64,000 bases of DNA from Fimbriiglobus ruber. GTDB taxonomy: Bacteria > Planctomycetota > Planctomycetia > Gemmatales > Gemmataceae. Each line of letters starts with the position of its first letter. The first letter of the stretch is position 1. The notes under the pieces are model-generated. The model made no database searches, was not told where the DNA came from, and was given only the letters and a program-made list of their open reading frames with translations. Shown here in pieces: positions 25,475 through 38,706 of this stretch. The DNA lies in assembly GCF_002197845.1 (NCBI RefSeq), contig NZ_NIDE01000008.1:434001-498000 (forward strand), read 5' to 3'. Made by a program: the position numbers and the translations under genes.

Positions 25475-27232
25475 TCAGGCGACGGTCACCGCCTCCTGGT
25501 CAGAGCCTTGGTTCCCGGCCACGTCCGTCGCCCGGACGTTCACCTGGAAGCTGCCGGTGACGGCGGGCGGCAGGGAATACGACCACGTGGACCAGTCGCC
25601 CCCGGCCGAGGTGTCCGTCACCGCGAAGAACAACTCCGTGGCACTGGTGAAGTCTTGCGTCCCCTCGTCCCAGTACAGGCCGGTGCCGTTCACGTCTTGA
25701 ATACTCACTTCGACCAGCGAGACACCCGACCCGCCGGCGTCATCGGCGGTCCCGTTGAGTCCGCCGGTCGAGGTGACATCCACCGCGACGACCGGGGCGG
25801 TGGTGTCGATCTCGATCGCCACATTCGTCGCCAGTGAGGCGGCCGACGAAATGGTCGGGTCGGCATCGTTCCCGGCGGCATCCCGAAGGGTTCCCGCGGT
25901 CACCGACAGGGAGACCGAGTCCAGGTCCGGGCTATTCTCCCCGGCGGCCACCGTGTACGTGCCGGTGAACACCGCGGCGTCCCCCGGGTCTTGCGTCAGG
26001 CTGACCGTCGCCCCCGTGTCCAACGTCAGGGTCAGTGTCGCGCCGGGAGACAGGTCGACGGTCTCGCTGAACGTGACCGTGATGTCGACCGAGTCGCCCG
26101 CTTTGAGGACCCCCGACGACGGGTTGGCCGTCACCGACACCACGCCCGGAGCGGTGGTATCGATGGCGATGTCCCGGCTCGCTGCCAGTGAACCGGGGCT
26201 GCCTGGGGCTGCCAGAGTCAGGTCGGCGGCGTTCCCGGCCGCGTCGGCGATTACGCCCCCGTTGAGGTCGAGAGCGGCCGCCGAGGCGTAGTCCAGTTTG
26301 GCCACATTTTCTCCGGCCTGAACCGTATACCGGAACGTCAGGGTGTCGGTCCCGCTGCCGCCGGTGTATTCCGCGGTCCCGCCGGAGTTCAGCGCCAGGG
26401 TCGGCGTGCCGCCGGAGGTATCGACCGTGACCGGTTCGCCGAATGCGACCAGGATGTCGATCACCGTTCCGGCCGCGTAAGACCCGTCCGGCGTCGCCCC
26501 CGTATCGACCGTCGCCCCGGTGACGGCCGGAGCAGTTTGGTCCGAGGTGATGGTGAAACTGGCGGCGCTGCTCGGGTTGCCGGCGAGGTCCACCGCGGCC
26601 CCGGCCGCGATTCCGATCGTGACCGACCCGTCGGCGGTCGGCGTCAGATCGAAGGTGTACGTGCGGCCGTCGACCTGGACGAAGTTAGACACAATGCCGT
26701 TGGTCGCGTCGATTCCGGTTTCGTCGAAGCCGGTGACGTCTTCCCCGAAGTCGATCGCGATGGAGATGGGGCTGGCGTTCGTCGGGTCCGTCGCGGAGGT
26801 CGTGACGGTCGGGGTCGGCGCGGTGGTGTCGACAACCAGGGTCAACCCGGCGGACGGACCACTCGTGTTCCCGGCCGCGTCGGTGGCCGTGGCGGTCACC
26901 GCGTACGTCCCGTCCCCCAACGGGGTGGCCGGGGAGAGAGTCCAATCCCCGCTCCCGTCGGCCACAACCGTCCCGAGGGAGGTCGGACCGGACCCGTTGT
27001 CGGCGAAGACTTCGACCGTGGCCCCGATCTCGGCGGTTCCCACAATCGTTGGGGCCGGGTTGTTAGTCACCCCGTCCGTGCTGGAATCGCCGGTGTCGGT
27101 CGCCGGATCGAGCCCGGTAATCGTCGGGGGCGCGGGGGCCGTGACGTCGTAGGTGACGGTCAGGGGGGCCGAGGCCGGATTCGGCTTCCCGAAGGCGTCC
27201 TGCGCGGCGCCCGCCAAGACGGACACGGTCAC
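25475..27232 (-). CDS. Giant FG-GAP/Ig-like surface protein, C-terminal part (frameshifted)
   Basis: This frame continues the protein begun at 31026 after a one-base loss near 27301-27307. The frame is open up to that junction. It carries the end of one Ig-like unit, a different Ig-like unit (VTNNPAPTIVGTAEIGATVE), another unit of the main type (FGEDVTGFDETGIDATNGIV), two longer units with a calcium-type strand pattern (YAAGTVIDILVAFGEPV; LKAGDSVDITVTFSETV) and an unlike C-terminal unit ending in VRATDVAGNQGSDQEAVTVA. No sorting signal or membrane anchor is visible at the C-terminus. See the N-terminal part for overall function. Confidence 0.82.
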   Translation of the reverse strand: MTVSVLAGAAQDAFGKPNPASAPLTVTYDVTAPAPPTITGLDPATDTGDSSTDGVTNNPAPTIVGTAEIGATVEVFADNGSGPTSLGTVVADGSGDWTLSPATPLGDGTYAVTATATDAAGNTSGPSAGLTLVVDTTAPTPTVTTSATDPTNASPISIAIDFGEDVTGFDETGIDATNGIVSNFVQVDGRTYTFDLTPTADGSVTIGIAAGAAVDLAGNPSSAASFTITSDQTAPAVTGATVDTGATPDGSYAAGTVIDILVAFGEPVTVDTSGGTPTLALNSGGTAEYTGGSGTDTLTFRYTVQAGENVAKLDYASAAALDLNGGVIADAAGNAADLTLAAPGSPGSLAASRDIAIDTTAPGVVSVTANPSSGVLKAGDSVDITVTFSETVDLSPGATLTLTLDTGATVSLTQDPGDAAVFTGTYTVAAGENSPDLDSVSLSVTAGTLRDAAGNDADPTISSAASLATNVAIEIDTTAPVVAVDVTSTGGLNGTADDAGGSGVSLVEVSIQDVNGTGLYWDEGTQDFTSATELFFAVTDTSAGGDWSTWSYSLPPAVTGSFQVNVRATDVAGNQGSDQEAVTVA

Positions 27233-30200
27233 GTCGCCCTCGGCGCCCGGGGTGACATCGAACGTGTACGTCCGGGTGTCGACCGCGACGAAATTCGAGA
27301 CCGCCCGTTGGTCACGTCGAGTCCGGTCTCGTCGAACCCGGTCACGTCCTCACTGAAAGTGACGACGAACGGGATCGGGGAAGCGTTCGTGGCCAGCCCT
27401 GCCGGAGACGTAACCGTCGCGGACGGGGCGAACCGCTCGGAGGTAATGTCGAATGTGCCAGCCACGTTCTGGTTCCCCGCCACGTCTGTTGCCGCGCCGG
27501 CAGGTACCGACACGGTGACCAGTCCGTCCCCCACCGGGGCAACGTCGAACGTGTACGTCCGGGCGTCGACCGCAACGAAATTCGAGACCGTCCCGTTGGT
27601 CACGTCGAGTCCGGTCTCATCGAACCCGGTCACGTCCTCACTGAAAGTGACGGTGAACGGGACGAGGGCTGCCGCCGTCGGGTCGAGTTCGGTGGTCGTG
27701 ATCGCCACGGTCGGGGCCGTGGTGTCGGAAGTCACCGTGGCCGTGTTCGAGGCCAGGTTGTCGTTCCCCGCGGCGTCCGTGGCGGCGCCGGCCACGACCG
27801 TGACGGTCACGTCGCCGTCGGCGGCCGGGGCGACGTCGAACGTGTACGTCCGGGCGACGACCGCGACGAAATTCGAGACCGTCCCGTTGGTCACGTCGAG
27901 TCCGGTCTCGTCGAACCCGGTCACGTCCTCACTAAAGGTGACGGTGAACGGAATCGGGTTGGCGTTCGTCGGGCTCGCCGCCCCCGTGGCGACCGTGGCG
28001 GCCGGGGCCGTCCGGTCCGACGTGATGGTGAAGGTCGAAGCGGCCGTGGGATGTCCCCCGGAGTCGGTCGCCGCCCCGGCCGCGACGACGATCGCCACCG
28101 GGCCGTCGGCCGCCGGGGCGACGTTGAACGTGTACGTCCGGGCGTCGACCGCTGTGAAGTCCGACAGGTCGCCGTTGGTTACGGTGAGCCCGGTCTGGTC
28201 GAACCCGGTCACGTCGTCCGCGAACGTGACGGTGAACGGGATGAGCGAGAGGTTGGTCGGGTCCGTCGCCGGGGTGCTAATGACGGCCGTCGTCACGGTC
28301 CCGGTAAACGTCCGGGTGAGCGCGTTCGACGCCACGTTATCATTCCCGGCCGCGTCCGCCGCCACCCCGGCCGCGACCGATACGGTCACGTCGCCCGGTC
28401 CGGCGGGAACGACGTCGAACGTATACGTCCGGGCATCGACCGTGGCAAAGCCGATGACCGATCCGTTCGCCACCGTGACGCCGGCCGCCGTGAACCCGGT
28501 GACGGCCTCGTCGAACGTGACGGTGAACGGGATCGGGTTGGTACTCGTCGAGTCCGGCGCGGGCGAACTGACCGTCGGCGTCGGGGCCGTCCGGTCCGAC
28601 GTCACCGCGACCGCGTTCGAGGCCGCGTTGCCGTTCCCGGCCGCGTCCGTTGCCGCGTCGGCCGCGACGGAGACGGTGACCAACCCGTCTCCGTCCGGTG
28701 CGACGACGAACGTGTACGTCCGGGCGTCCACCGCCACGAAGTCCGACGCCGTCCCATTCTGGACCACCAGCCCCTCAAGGCCGAACCCGCTCACGTCCTT
28801 GTCGAACGCGACGGTGAACGGGATGAGGGCGGCGTTCGTCGGATCGGCCGCGGTGGTCGAAACCGTCGCCGTCGGGGCCGTGAGGTCGATCACCAACCCG
28901 CCGGCCAGGACCATCGCCCCGGTGTTCCCCGCGGCGTCGGAGGCGGCGACGTTTACGTCGTAGATTCCCTCGGGGAGGGGGGTCGGAATTGTGGCAGACC
29001 AGGTCGTACCCGTGACGACCGCCGCGACGGTCTGCCCGTCGACTGTGACGGTGACTGCGGCGGTCGGGTCGTCGACACTCCCCGTGAGAGTCGGAACAGT
29101 GTTGTTGGTCGTCAGCGGGTTGGCGGTCAGCCCGATCGTGCCGGTCGCGAACGTCCGGCTGAGCGTGTTCGAGGCGGTGTTGCCGTTCCCGGCCGCGTCC
29201 ACCGCCACCCCACCGGGGACGAACACCGTGACCTCCCCTTGGCCGGTCGGTGCCACGTCGAAGGTGTACGTCCGGGGGGACACCGAGGTAAAGGCCGTGA
29301 CCACGCCGTTGGTGACCGTCAGGCCCGCGGCCGAAAATCCGGTCACGTCCTCACTGAAGCTGACGCTGAACGGGATCGGGGAGACGTTCGTCGAGTCCGG
29401 GGCGGTGCTGCTGACGGTCGCGTCCGGGGCGGTGGTGTCGATGACCAGCGTGCCGTTCGCGGTTCCGACATTTCCGGCCCCGTCGGTCGCGGCGACCTGG
29501 ACCGCATACGTCCCTTCGGCCAGATTGGCCGGCACGACGGCCGCCCAGGTCGTCCCGGTCACCGATGCGGCGAACGTCGACCCGTTTACGGACACACTCA
29601 CCGACGCGGTCGGGTCGTCCACGGTCCCGGTCAGGGTCGGGGCGACGTCGTTGGTCGTCAGCGAGTCGACCGTTAGTTCTGGGGCGATCGAATCGAACAC
29701 CACCGCCACGCTGTTGGACGCGGTGTTGGGCTTTCCGGCGGACCCCGTTGCCGCGCCGGCCGGGACCGACACCGAAACAGTCCCTTGGCCCGCCGGGGTG
29801 ACGCCGAGCGTGTAGGTCGTGGCGCTCACCGGGGTGAAACTCGTCACGAACCCGTTCGTGACCGACACGCTCCCGGCCGTGAACCCGGTGACGGCTTCCG
29901 AGAACGTGACCGTGAACGGGATCGGGCTCGCGTTCGTCGGGTCCGCCGAAGCGGTGTTGACGGCCGCCGTCGGCCGGACCGTGTTCGTGGTGATGACGGC
30001 GGCCGTGCCGAACGGCAGGCCGGGGTATTGGGGGTCGGGCAGCCTGGCGAGCGTCTGGCCGTCGAACGCCCGCAACTGCGGGGACTGCCCCTGCCCGTTG
30101 GCGATAACGATGTCGTTGTGCCCGTCCTGGTTGACGTCGAGTACCGACACCTGCACCCCGTTGCGGATGCTGCTGTCGTCGTAGCCGAAAAAGTTGTGCA

Positions 30201-31026
30201 GGACCGCCCCGCCGTCGGGAGAGCCGCCCGAGATCGCGACCACGCGCGGCCCCCCGCCCGCGCCGGGTGCGGCAACGACCTCGACCTTCCCGTCCCCGTC
30301 CAAATCCCCGGCGGCCAACTGGATGCCGCCCCGGGCTGTGGACTCGAACACGAACGTGTTCAGCAGGACGGCCCCGCTCGCCCCGTCGAGTACGGTCACC
30401 CGCGGCGCGCCCCCGACGCCGGCCCCGACGATCACGTCCGGGGTCCCGTCGCCGTTGTAGTCGCCGGCGGCGACCGTCACCCCCTCGATCGCGGCGTCGA
30501 ACGGCCGGTACTGCTGCAGAACGGTGCCGTCCGTGCCGCGAAGGACCTGGACCAGTTCGCGGCCGTCCTGGATGGCCCCGACGACGATGTCGGCCGACCC
30601 GTCGCCGTCGAAGTCGGCGGCCGCGACGCTCACCCCGCCGCGGTTCGTCGCGTCCCCGGCGAGAAAGCTCCGGACGAGGTGCCCGTCGACGCCGCTGAAC
30701 ACATTCACGACCGCCCCGCCCGTCGGGCCGGCGCCGGTGATAAGGTCTTCGACGCCGTCCCCGTCGACGTCCCCGACGGCGACCCGGACCCCGCCGGTGA
30801 ACGACGCCTCGTACGCCCGGACGGCGAACTTCTCCAGACCGGTCGCCGCGTCGAACACGTGAACGATTGGGGCGCCCCCGGCACCGACCGAACTCGCGAT
30901 GATCTGTTGGGCCGCCGGCGTCGTGCGACTTTCGAGTGATTCGCAGGTCAGAAGCGCCCGCCTGTGCCGCTTCGCGGCCTCGGTCATCCGGGCCATTACG
31001 AGTTTCTTCCAGAAGAACAGAGACAT
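27229..31026 (-). CDS. Giant FG-GAP/Ig-like surface protein, N-terminal part (frameshifted)
   Basis: Start ATG 31026 gives MSLFFWKKLVMARM, then RRALLTCESLESRTTPAAQQ, an N-terminal motif typical of large exported planctomycete proteins. Residues about 45-340 hold FG-GAP/VCBS repeats with calcium-loop signatures (GDVDGDGVEDLITGAG, ADFDGDGSADIVVGA, GDYNGDGTPDVIVGAG, LDVNQDGHNDIVIANG). Then come about eight Ig-like units of 95 residues (PIPFTVTFSEDVTGFDETGL; ARTYTFDVAP; GAATDAAGN) and two of another type (VPTLTGSVDDPTAAVTVTV). The whole gene encodes about 1850 residues if the break near 27304 is repaired. Such proteins are likely cell-surface or adhesive. It is divergent from the sensor-kinase operon. 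CGAGGTG lies upstream of the start. Confidence 0.87.
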   Translation of the reverse strand: MSLFFWKKLVMARMTEAAKRHRRALLTCESLESRTTPAAQQIIASSVGAGGAPIVHVFDAATGLEKFAVRAYEASFTGGVRVAVGDVDGDGVEDLITGAGPTGGAVVNVFSGVDGHLVRSFLAGDATNRGGVSVAAADFDGDGSADIVVGAIQDGRELVQVLRGTDGTVLQQYRPFDAAIEGVTVAAGDYNGDGTPDVIVGAGVGGAPRVTVLDGASGAVLLNTFVFESTARGGIQLAAGDLDGDGKVEVVAAPGAGGGPRVVAISGGSPDGGAVLHNFFGYDDSSIRNGVQVSVLDVNQDGHNDIVIANGQGQSPQLRAFDGQTLARLPDPQYPGLPFGTAAVITTNTVRPTAAVNTASADPTNASPIPFTVTFSEAVTGFTAGSVSVTNGFVTSFTPVSATTYTLGVTPAGQGTVSVSVPAGAATGSAGKPNTASNSVAVVFDSIAPELTVDSLTTNDVAPTLTGTVDDPTASVSVSVNGSTFAASVTGTTWAAVVPANLAEGTYAVQVAATDGAGNVGTANGTLVIDTTAPDATVSSTAPDSTNVSPIPFSVSFSEDVTGFSAAGLTVTNGVVTAFTSVSPRTYTFDVAPTGQGEVTVFVPGGVAVDAAGNGNTASNTLSRTFATGTIGLTANPLTTNNTVPTLTGSVDDPTAAVTVTVDGQTVAAVVTGTTWSATIPTPLPEGIYDVNVAASDAAGNTGAMVLAGGLVIDLTAPTATVSTTAADPTNAALIPFTVAFDKDVSGFGLEGLVVQNGTASDFVAVDARTYTFVVAPDGDGLVTVSVAADAATDAAGNGNAASNAVAVTSDRTAPTPTVSSPAPDSTSTNPIPFTVTFDEAVTGFTAAGVTVANGSVIGFATVDARTYTFDVVPAGPGDVTVSVAAGVAADAAGNDNVASNALTRTFTGTVTTAVISTPATDPTNLSLIPFTVTFADDVTGFDQTGLTVTNGDLSDFTAVDARTYTFNVAPAADGPVAIVVAAGAATDSGGHPTAASTFTITSDRTAPAATVATGAASPTNANPIPFTVTFSEDVTGFDETGLDVTNGTVSNFVAVVARTYTFDVAPAADGDVTVTVVAGAATDAAGNDNLASNTATVTSDTTAPTVAITTTELDPTAAALVPFTVTFSEDVTGFDETGLDVTNGTVSNFVAVDARTYTFDVAPVGDGLVTVSVPAGAATDVAGNQNVAGTFDITSERFAPSATVTSPAGLATNASPIPFVVTFSEDVTGFDETGLDVTNGRSRISSRSTPGRTRSMSPRAPRAT

Positions 31027-31248
31027 GGACACCTCGTTGGGGAGGGGAACGCCACGAAGGGTCCGGGCGGCACGCGTCCCGAACCGAATCGTCCCGGACC
31101 GACCACGCTGGTCGGGCTCACAAATCCCGAGACTGATGACTCTTGATCCACCGAGATCGCCCCCCCGGTGTAGACAACGGAGTACTCCGCGGGGCGACGC
31201 CACCGGCCCGCCACCTTGTCCCGCCGATCGCGGGAACAAGTCGTAGCA

Positions 31249-31313
31249 AGTAAAATTTAATTAATGACAATTAATTATTATAATACTTAATTCCATAATT
31301 AATAATACCGATC
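31249..31313. promoter_or_regulatory. AT-rich island with TATAAT on both strands
   Basis: About 65 bases are almost pure A/T in an otherwise GC-rich window. ATTATAAT at 31277-31284 offers a TATAAT box on either strand. A suitable -35 is not clear. It could be a divergent promoter or a site for a nucleoid protein. Confidence 0.4.
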
Positions 31314-31356
31314 AGAAGGAACGATTTCTCGATCGAGTCTTTTGCTGATCTGTGTG

Positions 31357-31372
31357 AGGCACAGTTGTTGCG
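31357..31372 (+). promoter_or_regulatory. Candidate sigma-54 (-24/-12) promoter
   Basis: AGGCACAGTTGTTGCG matches the -24/-12 consensus (TGGCACG, four bases, TTGCW) at GG, CAC and TTGC with the required ten bases between GG and GC. It points toward the kinase/NtrC operon, 309 bases before the GTG at 31681. Confidence 0.5.
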
Positions 31373-31680
31373 AACGAAATGCAATCCCAATGCCATTGAA
31401 GTGACAATCGACCGAACGGCGGTATTAACGGTCACCAGCGGCGGCGCCCGCCGGCACCACATGTGGTCTGATTTTTCCACGAATTTAAGCGTTTTTTTTG
31501 GCGGCGCGTGCCGCGGAGAGGGGGCCCGGCTATGGTCGCGTAATCGGCACAGCCTGTTTCCGCCACCGGCCCGCTTCTCGCCGCTGTCGCACTCTCCGGC
31601 CGAGCCCGGTCGATGTCGGGCGGGTAAGCTGTATATCGGTTCAACACCGCTGTGCAACATCTGAACAGGCAGGGGATACT

Positions 31681-33171
31681 GTGGAACGCCGAAACGTCTC
31701 CGGCTTGCTCGCGCCGGTCGCCGTGCTGAGTTTCTTGCTCCTGGTCACGGCCGTGGGATCGGCGTGGTACACGCAGAGCATCCAACGCAGCCTGTCCTGG
31801 AGCCTGACGGAGAACGTGGCGAGCGTGGTGGCCGCCCAAGTGGTCGAAAGCAACATTCGGGAGGTGGACGCCTCGTTTTACCGCTTCCTGATCACCGGCG
31901 ACCGCGCGAATCTGGAGTCGATCCCGCGGCTCCAGCGGGAGACAGCCGACGCCCTCCACGAGGCCGAGCGGTGGGCTCTGAGTGAGGAAGAGAAGCGCCT
32001 GATGACGCAGGTCAGGCGGGGGTACGACCGGCTGTTCGATGAGTTCGGGCGGGCCGTCCGGGAGTCCTCCGGTCCGGTGCTCAAGGCGCGGATCGCGGTC
32101 CTCGCCGCCATCCCGGAGCGAGAGATCCTGGAACCGGCCCGGGAGTACCGCCGCCTCAACGAAGAGTCCCTGGCCGAGATCAGCCGCAAGACCGAGCAGC
32201 AGGCCAACGGTCTGACCGTCGGGCTGTTGGCCCTCGGCCTGTGCGGGGCCACCGGCGGCATGCTCGGCGGGTGGGTACTGATGACGGGCATTCGGCGGAC
32301 CATGGAGCAAACCGAGACCCGGCTGCGCGGCACGGCCGCCCGGCTCCGCGCCGTCGTCCCGGCCGCCGACCCGACGCGGGACCCCGCCGAGTGGGTGGAT
32401 GAGTCGGTCGCGGTCGTCCTAGACCGGCTGAGGCAGAGCGAGCGGGACGTCCTGCGCGCCGAGCAACTCGCGTTGGTCGGGCAAATGGCGGCGGGAATCG
32501 CGCACGAAGTCCGGAACCCGCTCGCGGCGATCAAGATTCTCGTCCAGACCGCCGCCGACCCGCTGCGGGAAACCCCGTTCGGGGCACGCGACCTGACGGT
32601 ATTGGAGCGGGAGATCGTTCGGCTGGAGCAAATCGTGAGTGGGTTTCTGGACTTCGCCCGGCCCCCCCAACCGGACAAAAAAGTCATCGAACTGCGCCCC
32701 GTCCTCGAACAGGCGGTGGCCGGCCTGCGGCCCCGGGCCGATATTCTGCGGGTGGCCCTCGAGATCGACCTGTCCGACGAGCCGATCACTGTGTGTCTCG
32801 ACCCGAATCAGTTTCGACAACTAGTGTACAATCTTTTGTGCAATGCGATCGACGCCCAACCCAAGGGCGGGTATGCCCGTATCACGGCCGCGACCGCGAC
32901 CGCGGGTGCCGAGCCGGGCGTGCTGCTCCGGGTCGAAGACGTGGGCGACGGCCTCCCGCAGGGGTTCGGGGACCGTATCTTCGAGCCGTTCGTCAGTACG
33001 AAAGCGACTGGGATGGGACTCGGACTGTCCATTTGCCGCCGGATCGTCGAGTCGCACGGCGGATCCATCCGGGCGGCGGACCGGCCGGACCGTGGCACCG
33101 TTTTTACCATCTACCTGCCTCTATCCCTCCCCGGCGGCGCCCGTGCGGCGGCGCCCGGCGGTCAGACATAG
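31681..33171 (+). CDS. Membrane sensor histidine kinase (NtrB-like)
   Basis: GTG 31681, after CAGGGG, yields 496 residues. Two membrane helices (about 10-30 and 178-200) enclose a 145-residue extracytoplasmic helical sensor region. A cytoplasmic linker leads to the dimerisation domain with H-box AGIAHEVRNPLAAIK (His275 as phosphoacceptor) and the ATPase domain with N-box NLLCNAIDAQ, DVGDGLP, IFEPFVSTKATGMGLGLS and a closing GTVFTIYLP. The stop is 9 bases before the NtrC-type regulator, so the two form an operon and almost certainly a two-component pair. The signal is unknown. The frame is open back to 31498, but that extension is unlike protein. Confidence 0.92.
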   Translation: MERRNVSGLLAPVAVLSFLLLVTAVGSAWYTQSIQRSLSWSLTENVASVVAAQVVESNIREVDASFYRFLITGDRANLESIPRLQRETADALHEAERWALSEEEKRLMTQVRRGYDRLFDEFGRAVRESSGPVLKARIAVLAAIPEREILEPAREYRRLNEESLAEISRKTEQQANGLTVGLLALGLCGATGGMLGGWVLMTGIRRTMEQTETRLRGTAARLRAVVPAADPTRDPAEWVDESVAVVLDRLRQSERDVLRAEQLALVGQMAAGIAHEVRNPLAAIKILVQTAADPLRETPFGARDLTVLEREIVRLEQIVSGFLDFARPPQPDKKVIELRPVLEQAVAGLRPRADILRVALEIDLSDEPITVCLDPNQFRQLVYNLLCNAIDAQPKGGYARITAATATAGAEPGVLLRVEDVGDGLPQGFGDRIFEPFVSTKATGMGLGLSICRRIVESHGGSIRAADRPDRGTVFTIYLPLSLPGGARAAAPGGQT

Positions 33172-33180
33172 GAGCCGTCC

Positions 33181-34602
33181 GTGCCCAAACTGCTCATCAT
33201 CGACGACGAGCCGAGTCTCCTCTACTCACTCCACTCCGGGCTCACGGCCAAGGACCTGGACGTCCTGACGGCGCCCACCGGGACCGAAGGCATTCGGGCC
33301 GTCCGGGACCACAAGCCGGACGCGGTCGTCCTGGACGTGCGGCTGCCGGACATGACCGGGCTCGAGGCGTTCGACCAGATCAAGGCGCTCGACCCGCGGG
33401 TGCCCGTCGTCATCCTGACCGCGTTCGCCGCCACCGATACGGCGATCCAGGCGGTGAAGCGCGGGGCGTTCGATTACCTGCTCAAGCCGGTGGACCTGCA
33501 CCACCTCCGGGACGTGGTCGCCCGGGCGGTGGAGTTGCGGCGGATGCAGAGCGTCCCGGCGGTCATCGACGGCGACCCGGTGACCCCGGACGCGGACGAG
33601 ATCGTCGGCCGGAGCCCGGCGATGCAGTCCGTGTACAAGGCGATCGGGATGCTGGCCCCGCAGGACGTGACGGTCTTAATCACCGGCGAGAGCGGGACCG
33701 GCAAGGAGCTGATCGCGCGGGCCGTGTACCAGCACTCCGGCCGGGCCGACAAGCCGTTCCTGGCCATTAACTGTGCCGCCATTCCCGAGACCCTGCTCGA
33801 ATCGGAGCTGTTCGGCCACGAGCGGGGGGCGTTCACCGGGGCCGACCGGCAGCGGGTCGGGAAGTTCGAGCAGGCCAACGGCGGCACCCTGTTCCTTGAC
33901 GAGATCGGGGACATGACCCCGGCCGCCCAGGCGAAATTCCTGCGCGTCCTCCAGAAGCAGCAGTTCGACCGCATCGGCGGGAACGTCGCGGTGGCGACCG
34001 ACGTCCGGGTGATCGCGGCGACGAACCAGGACCTCGACGGGATGGTCGCGACCGGCCGGTTCCGGCGGGACCTGCTCTACCGGCTGAACGGGTTCGTCAT
34101 CACCCTGCCGCCGCTCCGCGACCGCCGGGAGGACATCCCGCTGCTCGCCGAGCACGTCCTCCGGCAGTGCGGCCGGCGGCTCGGGAAGACGCTGCGGGCG
34201 GTGGCCCCGGACGCGCTGGACTTGCTCGAACGGCACCCCTGGCCGGGGAACATCCGGGAACTCCAGAACGTCATCCGGTTCGCCGCCATGAAGGCGGTCG
34301 GGGACGTGGTCACCCCGGATTGCCTTCCGGCGGCGTGCCGCGGGGAGGGCGGCCCCGGCGCGCCGGGACTCCGCCCGGACGATTTGTCACACGTTCGTCA
34401 ACTGGTACGCGACCTTCTGGCCACCGGGTCGGCGGACATCTACCGAAAGATTCTGGCCGAGGTCGATCGGGTGGTTGTCGGTGAAGTGCTTCAACACGTC
34501 GGCGGCAATCAGGTGCATGCCAGCGAGCTGCTCGGGATCTCGCGCAACACGCTCCGGTCGAAAATCCAGTCGTTCGATAGTCCGTCCTCGGCCCCGAGTT
34601 GA
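33181..34602 (+). CDS. Sigma-54-dependent response regulator, NtrC family
   Basis: GTG 33181, preceded by AGGAG, gives 473 residues. Receiver domain 1-120: acidic pair DDE (8-10), phosphoacceptor Asp52 in [10 protein letters not shown], and KP at 102-103. Central AAA+ domain: Walker A GESGTGKE (169-176), the sigma-54-contacting GAFTGA loop (216-221), Walker B LFLDEIGD, and [20 protein letters not shown] with the arginine fingers. C-terminal Fis-type helix-turn-helix: [18 protein letters not shown] and [12 protein letters not shown]. It is complete and should activate sigma-54 promoters when phosphorylated by the kinase encoded just upstream; the candidate -24/-12 site at 31357 suggests self-control. 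Confidence 0.96.
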
Positions 34603-35239: not shown

Positions 35240-35758
35240 TCAGTCGTCGCGGAAGTCGCGAAGCAAACTGCGGATCGTTTTGAGGGCGTTGAGCATCCGC
35301 CGAACGTCGGTCACAAGCGCTGGCTTGCTGGCATCGCCTTCGGGTAGTTTTTCGTACCGGTCGAAAATGTCGGCGATTTGCTTCAGGAACACCGCCTCGC
35401 GGTCGGTCAACTCTGTTTCCAGTATTGCCGTTTCATTTTCGCACCTGGCACTCTCCATCCGCTCGCGGAGGTCCATCATCTCCATCAGGAACGCTTGATC
35501 CAGGCTTTTCTCGTCCCGCGAGGACGGGCCGCCTAGCAGCTGGACCAGGTATTCCGCGCGGCGTGTCGGGTCGCGCAACGCCGTGTAAGCCTCGTTCAAC
35601 GCGGCAGTGAGTTCGAGGCTCGCCTGTTGCTCCGCGCCGGAGCCGAGTTGGTGAAAGTCCGGGTGGATGTGCCGCGACCGGGCGAGATATTCTCGCTCAA
35701 CAGTGGCAAGGTCAACGGAAAAGCGCCTCGGTAACCCGAGGCGCTCGAAATGGTCCAT
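35240..35758 (-). CDS. hscB: Fe-S assembly co-chaperone HscB
   Basis: HscB delivers IscU to its Hsp70 partner during iron-sulphur cluster transfer. The 172-residue product has an N-terminal J-domain with HPD (residues 32-34, in SRHIHPDFHQLG) and ALNEAYTALRDPTRRAEYLV, then a C-terminal three-helix domain (DQAFLMEMMDLRERMESARC; IADIFDRYEKL) that binds IscU. The start at 35758 gives MDHFERLGLPRRF, typical of the family. A hairpin lies between it and iscA upstream. The specialised Hsp70 gene hscA and a ferredoxin gene, often next to it, are not seen here. Confidence 0.93.
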   Translation of the reverse strand: MDHFERLGLPRRFSVDLATVEREYLARSRHIHPDFHQLGSGAEQQASLELTAALNEAYTALRDPTRRAEYLVQLLGGPSSRDEKSLDQAFLMEMMDLRERMESARCENETAILETELTDREAVFLKQIADIFDRYEKLPEGDASKPALVTDVRRMLNALKTIRSLLRDFRDD

Positions 35759-35811
35759 TGCACGATCCGTACTGACGGGACATCGGCATTCACACCACCA
35801 TCGTCTGGTCT

Positions 35812-35877
35812 GAATAACCGGCCCGCACAGCGGACCCTACAAGACTCTGTAGGGTCCGCTGTGCGGACCGGTTATTC
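35812..35877. repeat. 30-bp hairpin inside the isc operon
   Basis: Arms at 35812-35841 and 35848-35877 pair with one mismatch around the 6-base loop AGACTC. The core GTAGGGTCCGCTGTGCGGAC recalls a dispersed planctomycete repeat. It sits 25 bases after the iscA stop and 53 bases before the hscB start. Confidence 0.8.
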
Positions 35878-35902
35878 GAACCACGTCCCCCCGTTTACCG
35901 AA

Positions 35903-36307
35903 TTACATCGAGAACGAGCTGCCGCAGCCGCAGGTGCTCTTGGCGTTCGGGTTCTTGATGCTGAAGCCGCGCTTGTTCAGGTCGTCCAGGAAGTCGACCG
36001 TGGCGCCGTTGAGGTACAACATGCTGCGCTTGTCGATCACGACCGGAATGCCGGTGAGTTCGTACACTTCGTCCAGCTTTTCGTTCAGGGTGGGGTCGAG
36101 GTCGAGCTTGTGCTCCATCCCGCTGCACCCGCCGCCGACGACGCGGACGCGGAGGCGGAGGGTTTCTTTAACCCCTTCGGCTTCCTGGCTGGCGATGATC
36201 CGCAGGACTTCGGCCGCGGCCTTCGGCGTGATGATGACGTTCGGCGTGGTCTTCGGGGCTTCGGTCTTCAGGCCGAGGGTGGGTTGTTCGGTGGTCGCGG
36301 TGGACAT
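35903..36307 (-). CDS. iscA: Iron-sulphur assembly protein IscA/ErpA family
   Basis: A-type carriers hold iron or Fe-S clusters on three Cys and pass them to apo-proteins. The 134-residue product has Cys61 in GGGCSGMEHKLDLD and the C-terminal pair in STCGCGSSFSM (Cys126 and Cys128). A 25-residue Thr/Pro-rich N-terminal extension precedes the core (VIITPKAAAEVLRIIASQ). It follows iscU by 73 bases on the same strand. Separation of IscA, ErpA and SufA types from sequence alone is not reliable; the isc context favours IscA. Confidence 0.92.
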   Translation of the reverse strand: MSTATTEQPTLGLKTEAPKTTPNVIITPKAAAEVLRIIASQEAEGVKETLRLRVRVVGGGCSGMEHKLDLDPTLNEKLDEVYELTGIPVVIDKRSMLYLNGATVDFLDDLNKRGFSIKNPNAKSTCGCGSSFSM

Positions 36308-36380
36308 ATCAGACCTTCTTTCGTGGGTTCGGGGTCGGGAAGGTGATCCGTGAGATTATACGCGATTTCGCCGGGATTGC

Positions 36381-36797
36381 TCACCCGGCCGCGCCGACCG
36401 CCTCGGCGACGGCGGCGGGTTGCTTGTCCTGGAAGTTTTTGACGGCCGCCTTGATCGCGTCCTCGGCCAACACCGAGCAGTGGACTTTGACCGGCGGCAG
36501 TGCCAGTTCTTCGACGATCTGGGTGTTCTTGAGGGCGAGGGCCTCGTCGAGCGTCTTGCCCTTCAGCCACTCGGTCGCCAGGCTGCTGGAGGCGATCGCG
36601 CTGCCACACCCGAACGTTTTGAACTTGGCGTCTTCGATGACGCCGGTGTCCGGGTTGACCCGGATCTGGAGCCGCATCACGTCGCCGCACTCCGGGGCGC
36701 CGACGAGGCCGGTGCCGACGCTCGTGTCCTTGGCGTCGAAGCTGCCGACGTTGCGCGGGTTGTTGTAGTGGTCCAGAATGGCGTCGCTATAGGGCAT
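36381..36797 (-). CDS. iscU: Iron-sulphur cluster scaffold IscU
   Basis: IscU is the scaffold on which IscS-derived sulphur and iron form a [2Fe-2S] cluster. The 138-residue product has the three ligand Cys: Cys37 (APECGDVM), Cys64 (TFGCGSAIASSS) and Cys107 (PPVKVHCSVLAEDA); the HscA-recognition motif reads LPPVKV, as in the family (LPPVK). The N-terminus MPYSDAILDHYNNPRNVGSF is standard. A short Ala-rich tail follows. It lies 85 bases after iscS. Confidence 0.96.
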   Translation of the reverse strand: MPYSDAILDHYNNPRNVGSFDAKDTSVGTGLVGAPECGDVMRLQIRVNPDTGVIEDAKFKTFGCGSAIASSSLATEWLKGKTLDEALALKNTQIVEELALPPVKVHCSVLAEDAIKAAVKNFQDKQPAAVAEAVGAAG

Positions 36798-36882
36798 GAT
36801 GAGACTCCTCGATAAAGACCGTCGCGGGCGGCCGCGCTCTAGTTTGATAGCCTCGGGGCGATAACCGATTCTTATTTCCGGA

Positions 36883-38103
36883 TCAGTGGGCGGCCCACTG
36901 GATGCTCTTGAGGTCGATCCCCTGTTGGGCCATCTCGAACAGCGGCGACATTTCGCGGAGGCGGTTCACCTCCTTGGTCACCAGATCGACGACGAAATCA
37001 ACTTCTTCCTCGGTGTTGAACCGCCCGAGGCCGAACCGGATACTGCTGTGGGCGAGTTCGTCGCCCACACCCAGAGCCCGGAGGACGTAGCTCGGTTCGA
37101 GGCTCGCGCTCGTACAGGCGGACCCGGATGACACCGCCACGTCCTTAATACCCATCATCAGCCCCTCACCTTCCACGTAGGCGAAGCTGATGTTGGCGTT
37201 CCCGGGCAGTCGCTCGGTCGGGTGGCCGTTCAGGTACGACTCGGGCAGCGCGTCCATGATCCCGGCTCGCAACCGCTCGCGGAGAGCATACGTCCGCTTA
37301 CTCTCTTCCGGCATTTCCCGCAACGAGATTTCGGCCGCGGCGCCGTAGCCCACGATCAGCGGCACCGGTAGCGTACCCGACCGCATCCCCCGCTCGTGCC
37401 CGCCGCCGTCGATGATCGGCTCCAGGCGAACGCGCGGGTCTTTCTTGCGGACATAGAGTGCGCCGATCCCCTTGGGACCGTACATTTTGTGAGCGCTGAG
37501 GCTGAGCAGATCGACGCCCATGTCCAATACGTCGATCGTCACTTTCCCGGCAGCTTGGACGGCGTCCGTGTGAAACAACACGCCTTTTTCTTTGCAGACT
37601 TTGCCAATCGCCTTGATCGGCTGGATGGTCCCGATCTCGTTGTTCGCCATCATCACGGAGACGAGGATCGTCTTGTCCGTGATGGCTTCCCGCACCTGAT
37701 CTGCGGACACCTGGCCGAACTTGTCCACCGGCAGGTACGTGACCTGGAAGCCATCGCGTTCGAGCCGCTTGGATGTGTCGAGTACGCACTTGTGTTCGGT
37801 GGACGTCGTGACGACGTGGTTGCCCTTCTTCTTGTACATCGCCGCCACGCCCTTGAGGGCGAGGTTGTTGCTCTCGGTGGCGCCGCTAGTGAAGATGATT
37901 TCCTTGCCGGTCGCCCCGACGAGTTTGGCGATCTGGCTGCGGGCGTCTTCCACGGCCGCCTCGGCCTCCCACCCGAACGGGTGGTTGCGGCTGGCGGAGT
38001 TGCCGAACTTCTCGGTGAAGTACGGCAGCATCGCCTCGACCACCCGCGGGTCGGTCCGCGTCGTGGCGTTGTTGTCCATGTAAATTGGCAGCTTTACGCC
38101 CAT
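36883..38103 (-). CDS. iscS: Cysteine desulphurase IscS
   Basis: PLP-dependent enzyme that takes sulphur from cysteine for Fe-S clusters and thio-modifications. The 406-residue product has [18 protein letters not shown], the PLP Lys206 in [12 protein letters not shown], His105 in STEHKC, and the persulphide-forming Cys330 in [15 protein letters not shown], on the long flexible loop of group I enzymes. It ends [17 protein letters not shown], close to the E. coli IscS C-terminus that contacts IscU. The ATG at 38103 gives [10 protein letters not shown]. It follows the Rrf2 regulator by 69 bases. Confidence 0.97.
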
Positions 38104-38172
38104 GATCGTCTCTGACTCCTCGGTGTCGGCCGTGATCGCTTATTCGTTCGCAAAGAAAACCCGGGATTTAAT

Positions 38173-38706
38173 TTAAATCGTGGCCGGTTCGTGACAGGCC
38201 TGGCGAACACTTCCACAGCAACCGGGCGAATCGACGACTGGAAGCATGGGAAGCAGGCCGGACCCGACCGTTGCCCCGGTCACTACGCCGGAAAAGAGTT
38301 CACCCAGAGTCACCCCGCGGAGGACGCTCATGATCCGGCGATGAATTTCCGTGAGCGGCCCCTTGATGGAACAGCCGGATTCCAGCGAACAGATGTCGTC
38401 TTCCGCCCGGGGACTGGGGGGCGAGTGTTCCGTGCAAACGGTCAGCCGGAAGCCCTCCTGAATCGAATCCAGGAGGGTCGCCAGGGTGGTTTCGGAGGCG
38501 TTTTTGCGGAGAACGTACCCGCCGTTCACACCTCGACTACTCGACACAAACCCAGCCTGGCAGAGCAGCTTGAGAATGTTCGCGACGAACGGTCGGCTTA
38601 AGTTAAATTGTTCGGCAATCGTCCTCGCGTTCCCACCGTCCGGGTGCGAGTGGAGGTACGAAAGAATCAGGAGCGCGTAATCCGCCTTACGACTGAGCAT
38701 CGTCAT
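38173..38706 (-). CDS. iscR: Rrf2-family regulator, IscR-like
   Basis: The 177-residue product starts MTMLSRKADYALLILSYL and has the winged helix-turn-helix of the Rrf2 family (NARTIAEQFNLSRPFVANIL; GVNGGYVLRK). Three Cys lie where IscR binds its [2Fe-2S] cluster: Cys91, Cys106 and Cys112. The spacing (14 then 5 residues) differs from the 5 and 5 of E. coli IscR because of a Pro-rich insertion. It is the first gene of the isc operon and probably represses it when holding a cluster. A Gly/Cys-containing tail (SPGCCGSVRQACHEPATI) is unusual. GGAG lies 6 bases before the ATG. Confidence 0.92.
   Translation of the reverse strand: MTMLSRKADYALLILSYLHSHPDGGNARTIAEQFNLSRPFVANILKLLCQAGFVSSSRGVNGGYVLRKNASETTLATLLDSIQEGFRLTVCTEHSPPSPRAEDDICSLESGCSIKGPLTEIHRRIMSVLRGVTLGELFSGVVTGATVGSGLLPMLPVVDSPGCCGSVRQACHEPATI

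Follow-up and report, generated by a model that had tools for sequence, protein, structure and literature searches.

In Salmonella and E. coli, ZraR drives both zraP and zraSR from divergent sigma-54 promoters, according to excerpts of PMC4987338. The locus described here lies in a 64-kb stretch of DNA, which we call the window, and its layout is best read as a variant of the zraP–zraSR layout, the nearest known system. As in the excerpted account of zraP/zraSR, an operon for a kinase and a sigma-54 activator diverges from its target. The window kinase resembles ZraS, with an NCBIfam score of 155.7 bits (below the cut-off), and the many kinase structures that its core matches include that of ZraS, 9jfj. 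In contrast to zraP/zraSR, however, the target of a window-type locus is otsA or an FG-GAP/Ig-like protein and not ZraP. The window promoters face each other and interlock, and the dyad lies to one side of them, inside the operon leader.

For PrsK/PrsR, sigma-54 sites before PEP-CTERM genes in long intergenic regions are described in excerpts of PMC1569441. As far as the excerpted text goes, both systems wire a membrane kinase and an NtrC-type regulator to surface-protein genes by sigma-54 sites, but the window system has one local target, and its proteins fall below the TIGR02915 and TIGR02916 cut-offs. The Orp operon of Desulfovibrio, judged by a cited title, is reportedly a divergent sigma-54 operon. 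Activator genes that adjoin or diverge from sigma-54 promoters with conserved binding motifs have been described for the Desulfovibrio T3SS and Ohc systems (excerpts of PMC4641369). The window shares with the excerpted cases an activator gene beside or divergent from sigma-54 promoters, whereas those cases are mainly one-component activators and the excerpts describe no face-to-face interlocked promoters. The window regulator has the domain order of NtrC, whereas the kinase reaches 72.2 of 240 bits for NtrB and has a hydrophobic N-terminal part. No description of a sigma-54 regulon in Gemmata-type planctomycetes was found among the papers listed from an open-access library, and a text search of PMC3162934 gave no mention of planctomycetes, Rhodopirellula or trehalose.

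The kinase–activator operon and its leader

The operon on the plus strand comprises a gene for a sensor histidine kinase of 496 aa with a GTG start (31681 to 33171) and a gene for a sigma-54 activator response regulator of 473 aa (33181 to 34602). Pfam assigned HisKA and HATPase_c domains to the kinase, and a receiver, an AAA+ domain with GAFTGA and a Fis HTH to the regulator. Domains and sequence agree with the initial annotation, which had proposed a sensor kinase and a sigma-54 activator with an intact GAFTGA loop. With PF00072, PF00158 and PF02954 over their cut-offs and GAFTGA present, the regulator falls into group I (NtrC-type) of the bacterial enhancer-binding proteins. The additional label of an NtrB/NtrC-like pair found no backing among the NCBI curated families: the kinase stayed below the equivalog cut-off for NtrB (GlnL; NF008293, 72.2 of 240 bits) and the regulator below that for NtrC (GlnG; TIGR01818, 500.7 of 558.6 bits). 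Three other identities were rejected on their cut-offs as well, namely AtoS/AtoC (NF008468, 189.4 of 646 bits; NF008469, 453.6 of 714 bits), ZraS/ZraR (NF007688, 155.7 of 479 bits; NF007689, 406.7 of 760 bits), and PrsK/PrsR of the PEP-CTERM system (TIGR02916, 109.2 of 300 bits; TIGR02915, 403.7 of 502.6 bits). The N-terminal part of the kinase is helical in a structure model that is weak overall (pLDDT 73.3, pTM 0.39), and two hydrophobic stretches were recognized in it by eye. Judged by title and aligned length, the 50 PDB matches listed for this model are to kinase cores.

The predicted leader of the operon comprises approximately 297 nt (31384 to 31680, plus strand) and matched no Rfam family. 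A leader riboswitch was considered and rejected, as the sub-threshold 14-base hit at 31032 to 31045 falls outside the leader. Self-activation from a site at 31357 had been proposed, along with a long leader on account of a 309-base gap. The gap between 31372 and the GTG start at 31681 was confirmed, and both proposals are plausible: among 48 homologous loci, 17 have a sigma-54-like plus-strand site at positions −228 to −379 relative to the kinase start, and the other paired loci imply leaders of 200–350 nt.

A facing pair of −24/−12 sites and its recurrence

A single promoter had been annotated ahead of the operon. This site, here termed P1 (AGGCACAGTTGTTGCG, 31357 to 31372, plus strand), points towards the kinase operon with a predicted start at ~31383. 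The sequence check agreed with the reported GG, CAC, TTGC and ten-base spacing (GG-N10-GC), and P1 differs at three positions from TGGCACGN4TTGCW, the sigma-54 consensus. While this site is real, a stronger facing partner had been overlooked. P2 (TGGCATTGGGATTGCA, 31395 to 31380, minus strand) points towards the divergent FG-GAP/Ig-like gene with a predicted start at ~31369, and it is the top-scoring −24/−12 site of the whole window. All site scores come from a hand-written weight matrix; by these scores, P1 is weaker than P2. Both window sites show GG-N10-GC with conserved flanking bases, as do 17 of the 48 loci (one plus site having GT at −12), and the genome contains one rpoN gene along with the GAFTGA activator. 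The two sites lie face-to-face, their starts 23 bp and their −12 elements ~10 bp apart. Transcripts from ~31383 (plus) and ~31369 (minus) would not overlap, whereas two polymerases would.

Motif counting was rejected as proof of the promoter. GGCACN5TTGC occurs once in the window (0.56 expected) and is rarer in the 12.4-Mb genome than its reversed control (108 versus 165). TGGCAYN5TTGCW, to which P2 belongs, occurs at 16 places in the genome, with 12 for the reversed pattern. By these counts, the P1 motif alone is no better than chance, and it is position and conservation that lift P1 above chance. Many equally good matches at random places had been named as grounds against the promoter. For the bare motif, such matches do exist. 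For the paired arrangement they do not: in the window and 581 kb of related DNA, a scan for facing pairs scoring at least 19 gave 33 rows, many of which repeat a locus in overlapping copies. Every row lay between a kinase and its target or just upstream of otsA, except for one place seen twice (L115/L230).

GGCACN5TTGC showed no clear avoidance of genes, as 13 of the first 30 of the 108 sites lie inside ORFs called with a codon-usage script. By the same simple script, 14 of the 16 TGGCAYN5TTGCW sites lie outside called genes and two inside, while 56% of the flanking bases are inside; the 14 intergenic sites provide a starting list for an RpoN regulon. The 14-mer GGCACAGTTGTTGC has an exact copy in the window's genome (C4:998849-998862, L030) whose flanks look unrelated; a pilin-like (FTLIELLVVIAIIAIL) gene follows ~410 bp downstream of this copy. 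Another GGCACN5TTGC site (L025) likewise precedes a pilin-like gene.

Homologous kinases were gathered in two rounds, the first covering 41 related genomes and the second 95 genomes of the family of soil and water bacteria to which, by the named records, Gemmata, Zavarzinella and Limnoglobus belong. A kinase match at 1e-80 was present in 34 of the 95 family genomes, with 41 matches in all. Six duplicates and one locus with too little upstream DNA were dropped before scoring, and 48 distinct loci were scored, comprising 37 of the 41 matches and 11 loci from named records; the four further kinase matches had neither pair nor target. A facing pair was defined by a summed score of at least 19 and starts 21–31 bp apart, within 600 bp. 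Such a pair was present in 17 of the 48 loci, spanning 14 genomes and 7 genera, and in each case 0 of 100 dinucleotide shuffles was as good. One more locus, L131, scored 16.6, with 1 of 100 shuffles as good. An internal spacer of 4/4 yielded the 17 loci, and 24 other spacer combinations yielded 0–2.

The pair coincided with the type of neighboring gene. Where otsA or the FG-GAP gene is the divergent neighbor, 17 of 20 loci have the pair; of the 28 others none does, 11 of these having at most 1.5 kb of upstream DNA. Three otsA loci lacked a pair inside the 600 bp: L082 has both sites back-to-back, L086 has a minus site but no plus site, and in L138 a pair scoring 20.2 lies beyond the searched region. 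High scores at other face-to-face distances were found in five loci at 0–17 bp (L085 scores 30.5 at 12 bp), in two at 33–47 bp and in one at 78–92 bp. Back-to-back pairs of high score gave eight entries over all distances, two of which were the window's own.

The core footprint of the pair is also more conserved than its surroundings. One genus contributed eight loci from seven genomes; across these, 21 of the 32 core columns were invariant versus 4 of 398 columns in the other upstream DNA. The corresponding numbers were 31/32 versus 221/398 for a closer trio and 28/32 versus 220/398 for two Zavarzinella copies.

Candidate enhancer and divergent target genes

Tandem palindromes bound by the regulator had been expected upstream of 31357. 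From 30901 up to that position, no palindrome matched more than 8 of the 12 consensus positions, a score common to 367 window positions. A tandem dyad does exist, but ~260–300 bp downstream of 31357, inside the leader. Copy 1 (TGTATATCGGTTCAACA, 31630 to 31646) matches 9 of 12 consensus positions and copy 2 (TGTGCAACATCTGAACA, 31651 to 31667), 21 bp from copy 1, matches 11 of 12. The tandem score, which relies on a consensus established by eye on part of the locus set, was reached by 0 of 200 shuffles. From its sequence, the dyad is the likely activator-binding site, and we take its 17-bp form to resemble the NtrC type. A position downstream of P1 would be an unusual place for an enhancer.

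Clearer versions of the dyad, TGTCCAGCGACTGGACC and TGTCCAGCGGCTGGACA, lie 20 bp apart in L135. Among the 17 paired loci, including the window, a dyad near the kinase start was matched by 0 of 200 shuffles in 10 loci and by at most 3 in 13, counts that are optimistic because several of the tested loci had themselves supplied the consensus by visual inspection. The dyad was weaker in the paired loci L126, L128 and L133 (6–11 of 200 shuffles), and none was found in the paired locus L122b (120 of 200 shuffles as good). Conversely, 7 of 31 unpaired loci (L086, L117, L119, L121, L123, L131, and L137) have a dyad with 0 of 200 shuffles. The link between dyad and pair is indirect, because the dyad is absent or weak in some paired loci and present in unpaired ones. 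The genome contains two matches to TGTNCAN5TGNACA and six to the reversed pattern, so the dyad is not enriched; a trans regulon via the dyad was rejected, since the sole other perfect match (C19:16758) looks coding by eye.

The divergent gene in the window encodes an FG-GAP and Ig-like (Big_12) protein. Its first part extends over 27229 to 31026 on the minus strand, with the likely ATG at 31026, and translations and a domain search show the Ig-like protein continuing on that strand in a different frame at 25475 to 27232. The first part ends in an apparent out-of-frame tail, and the frame split at 27229 to 27232 is either a frameshift or an assembly error. The predicted leader of this gene contains a single-copy, very A+T-rich stretch of 70 bp (31240 to 31310, TTAATTAA-like) in an otherwise GC-rich genome.

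An FG-GAP homologue is also divergent from a homologous kinase in L122. In L121 (Limnoglobus roseus), the FG-GAP gene is instead located downstream of the regulator, with a weak sigma-54-like site (CGGCATTGTGTTTGCG, score 8.9) ~200 bp upstream. This homologue (L121:11354-12490) scores just over the cut-off of PF12256 (TcdB_toxin_midN; 27.8 versus 24.8 bits), most likely a cross-match of FG-GAP propeller repeats and not a toxin.

Searches with tblastn identified a divergent target at most 2.5 kb upstream in 20 of the 48 loci, 18 with otsA (identified as PF00982) and two with the FG-GAP gene. OtsA serves trehalose synthesis. With otsA making up 18 of the 20 identified divergent targets, a stress response is the probable ancestral role, and its original output was probably trehalose synthesis. 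A search run with positive controls found no otsA in the three genomes of the window's genus (G000, G001, and G002), two of which are 86–87% complete drafts, and found the gene in all seven of the other genomes examined from the family. One genome (G105) has both versions ~11 kb apart, a kinase with the FG-GAP gene and a kinase with otsA. In G047, two otsA genes lie away from the kinases; one keeps a facing pair of lower score (8.1 + 9.0), whose partner site points at another membrane-protein gene ~310 bp off, and the other has one site. In G107, a pair precedes otsA at a contig end, its neighbor lying beyond the contig. In L225, with no kinase in the stretch seen, the partner site of an otsA promoter pair faces a membrane-protein gene, with a dyad in between, as if the whole control element had moved.

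Proposed two-way element and alternative readings

On the sequence evidence, the intergenic region from 31026 to 31681 is probably a two-way sigma-54 element, that is, an interlocked divergent promoter pair with one enhancer. The membrane kinase would sense an envelope or osmotic signal and phosphorylate the activator. The latter would bind the tandem dyad at 31630 to 31667, just ahead of the kinase gene, loop over ~270 bp, and open either promoter by means of its GAFTGA ATPase. P1 would drive the kinase–activator operon (autoregulation), and P2 the divergent gene. As the activator would open P1 as well as P2, the system would amplify itself while switching on its target. Only one promoter could be open at a time, judging from the geometry, because two polymerases would overlap. 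Room for the enhancer may be the reason for the long leader. The window's genome, in which no otsA was found, would have the FG-GAP/Ig-like protein as its target.

More tentatively, and with less confidence than the reading of the window itself, such loci may represent a conserved class. In this class, interlocked face-to-face sigma-54 promoters would share one enhancer and exclude each other, the output of the activator would be divided between them, and the layout would be kept when the target is exchanged (otsA for FG-GAP/Ig-like). If so, a single activator would split its output between its own operon and the target with built-in competition. The balance would be set by the position of the enhancer, downstream of one promoter and upstream of the other, and by the weaker plus site. 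The recurring combination of promoter pair, candidate enhancer, regulator and target is a testable module, and its geometry would be a natural case of how two sigma-54 holoenzymes, not both able to open, share one enhancer.

The main alternative, which we regard as unlikely, holds that only P2 works as a promoter. P1 would then be a non-productive holoenzyme site that tunes or blocks P2, the kinase operon would be transcribed from another promoter nearer its start, and the dyad would be a repressing operator. The lower score of P1 in the window fits this reading, as does its opening base. Across the 18 pairs that were aligned, plus sites begin with G (12), A (5) or C (1) and never with the consensus T, while minus sites begin with T (12) or C (6). 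Furthermore, L121, L123, L124, and L130 contain the kinase without a plus site scoring at least 8, and a dyad is found in L121 and L123; thus, the kinase does not depend on P1 in every locus. According to excerpts of PMC3844500, a sigma-54 site that adjoins or overlaps another promoter may repress or activate that promoter. The plus site nevertheless keeps GG-N10-GC in 16 of 17 pairs (L079 has GT for GC at −12), and in one genus it is at least as invariant as the minus site. Its counterpart in L225 faces another gene at ~310 bp, and no sigma-70-like promoter was found between 31000 and 31700, although such a scan may be poorly suited to this phylum. Against the two-way reading, a lone plus site without a target is present in L125 and L137.

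Far less probable is that the two sites form one palindromic operator for some other regulator. The pair does resemble an inverted repeat roughly (GGCA...TTGC/GCAA...TGCC), but a rigid operator would fix the distance between its halves. The observed offset varies from 21 to 31 bp across the pairs while the internal spacing of each site is kept, which favors two independent promoters over one palindrome. The least credible explanation is that P1 arose by chance in DNA with many near-matches: the motif is rarer than its reversed control and the window holds 50 hits with at most three mismatches to TGGCACGN4TTGCW versus 78 expected, but position and spacing recur across seven genera, and the shuffles (0 of 100 per locus), spacer controls and background controls speak against it.

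Other features were noted around the window locus and its relatives. In six paralogous kinase–activator pairs (L087, L088, L089, L090, L093, and L096), the regulator is followed by a good sigma-54 site, which in L093 and L096 precedes genes that read as an RND-type efflux operon. In the window itself, the minus strand from 35240 to 38706 carries iron-sulphur cluster genes, recognized by eye from the translations, with HscB-, IscA-, IscU-, and NifS/IscS-like genes and an Rrf2-like regulator.
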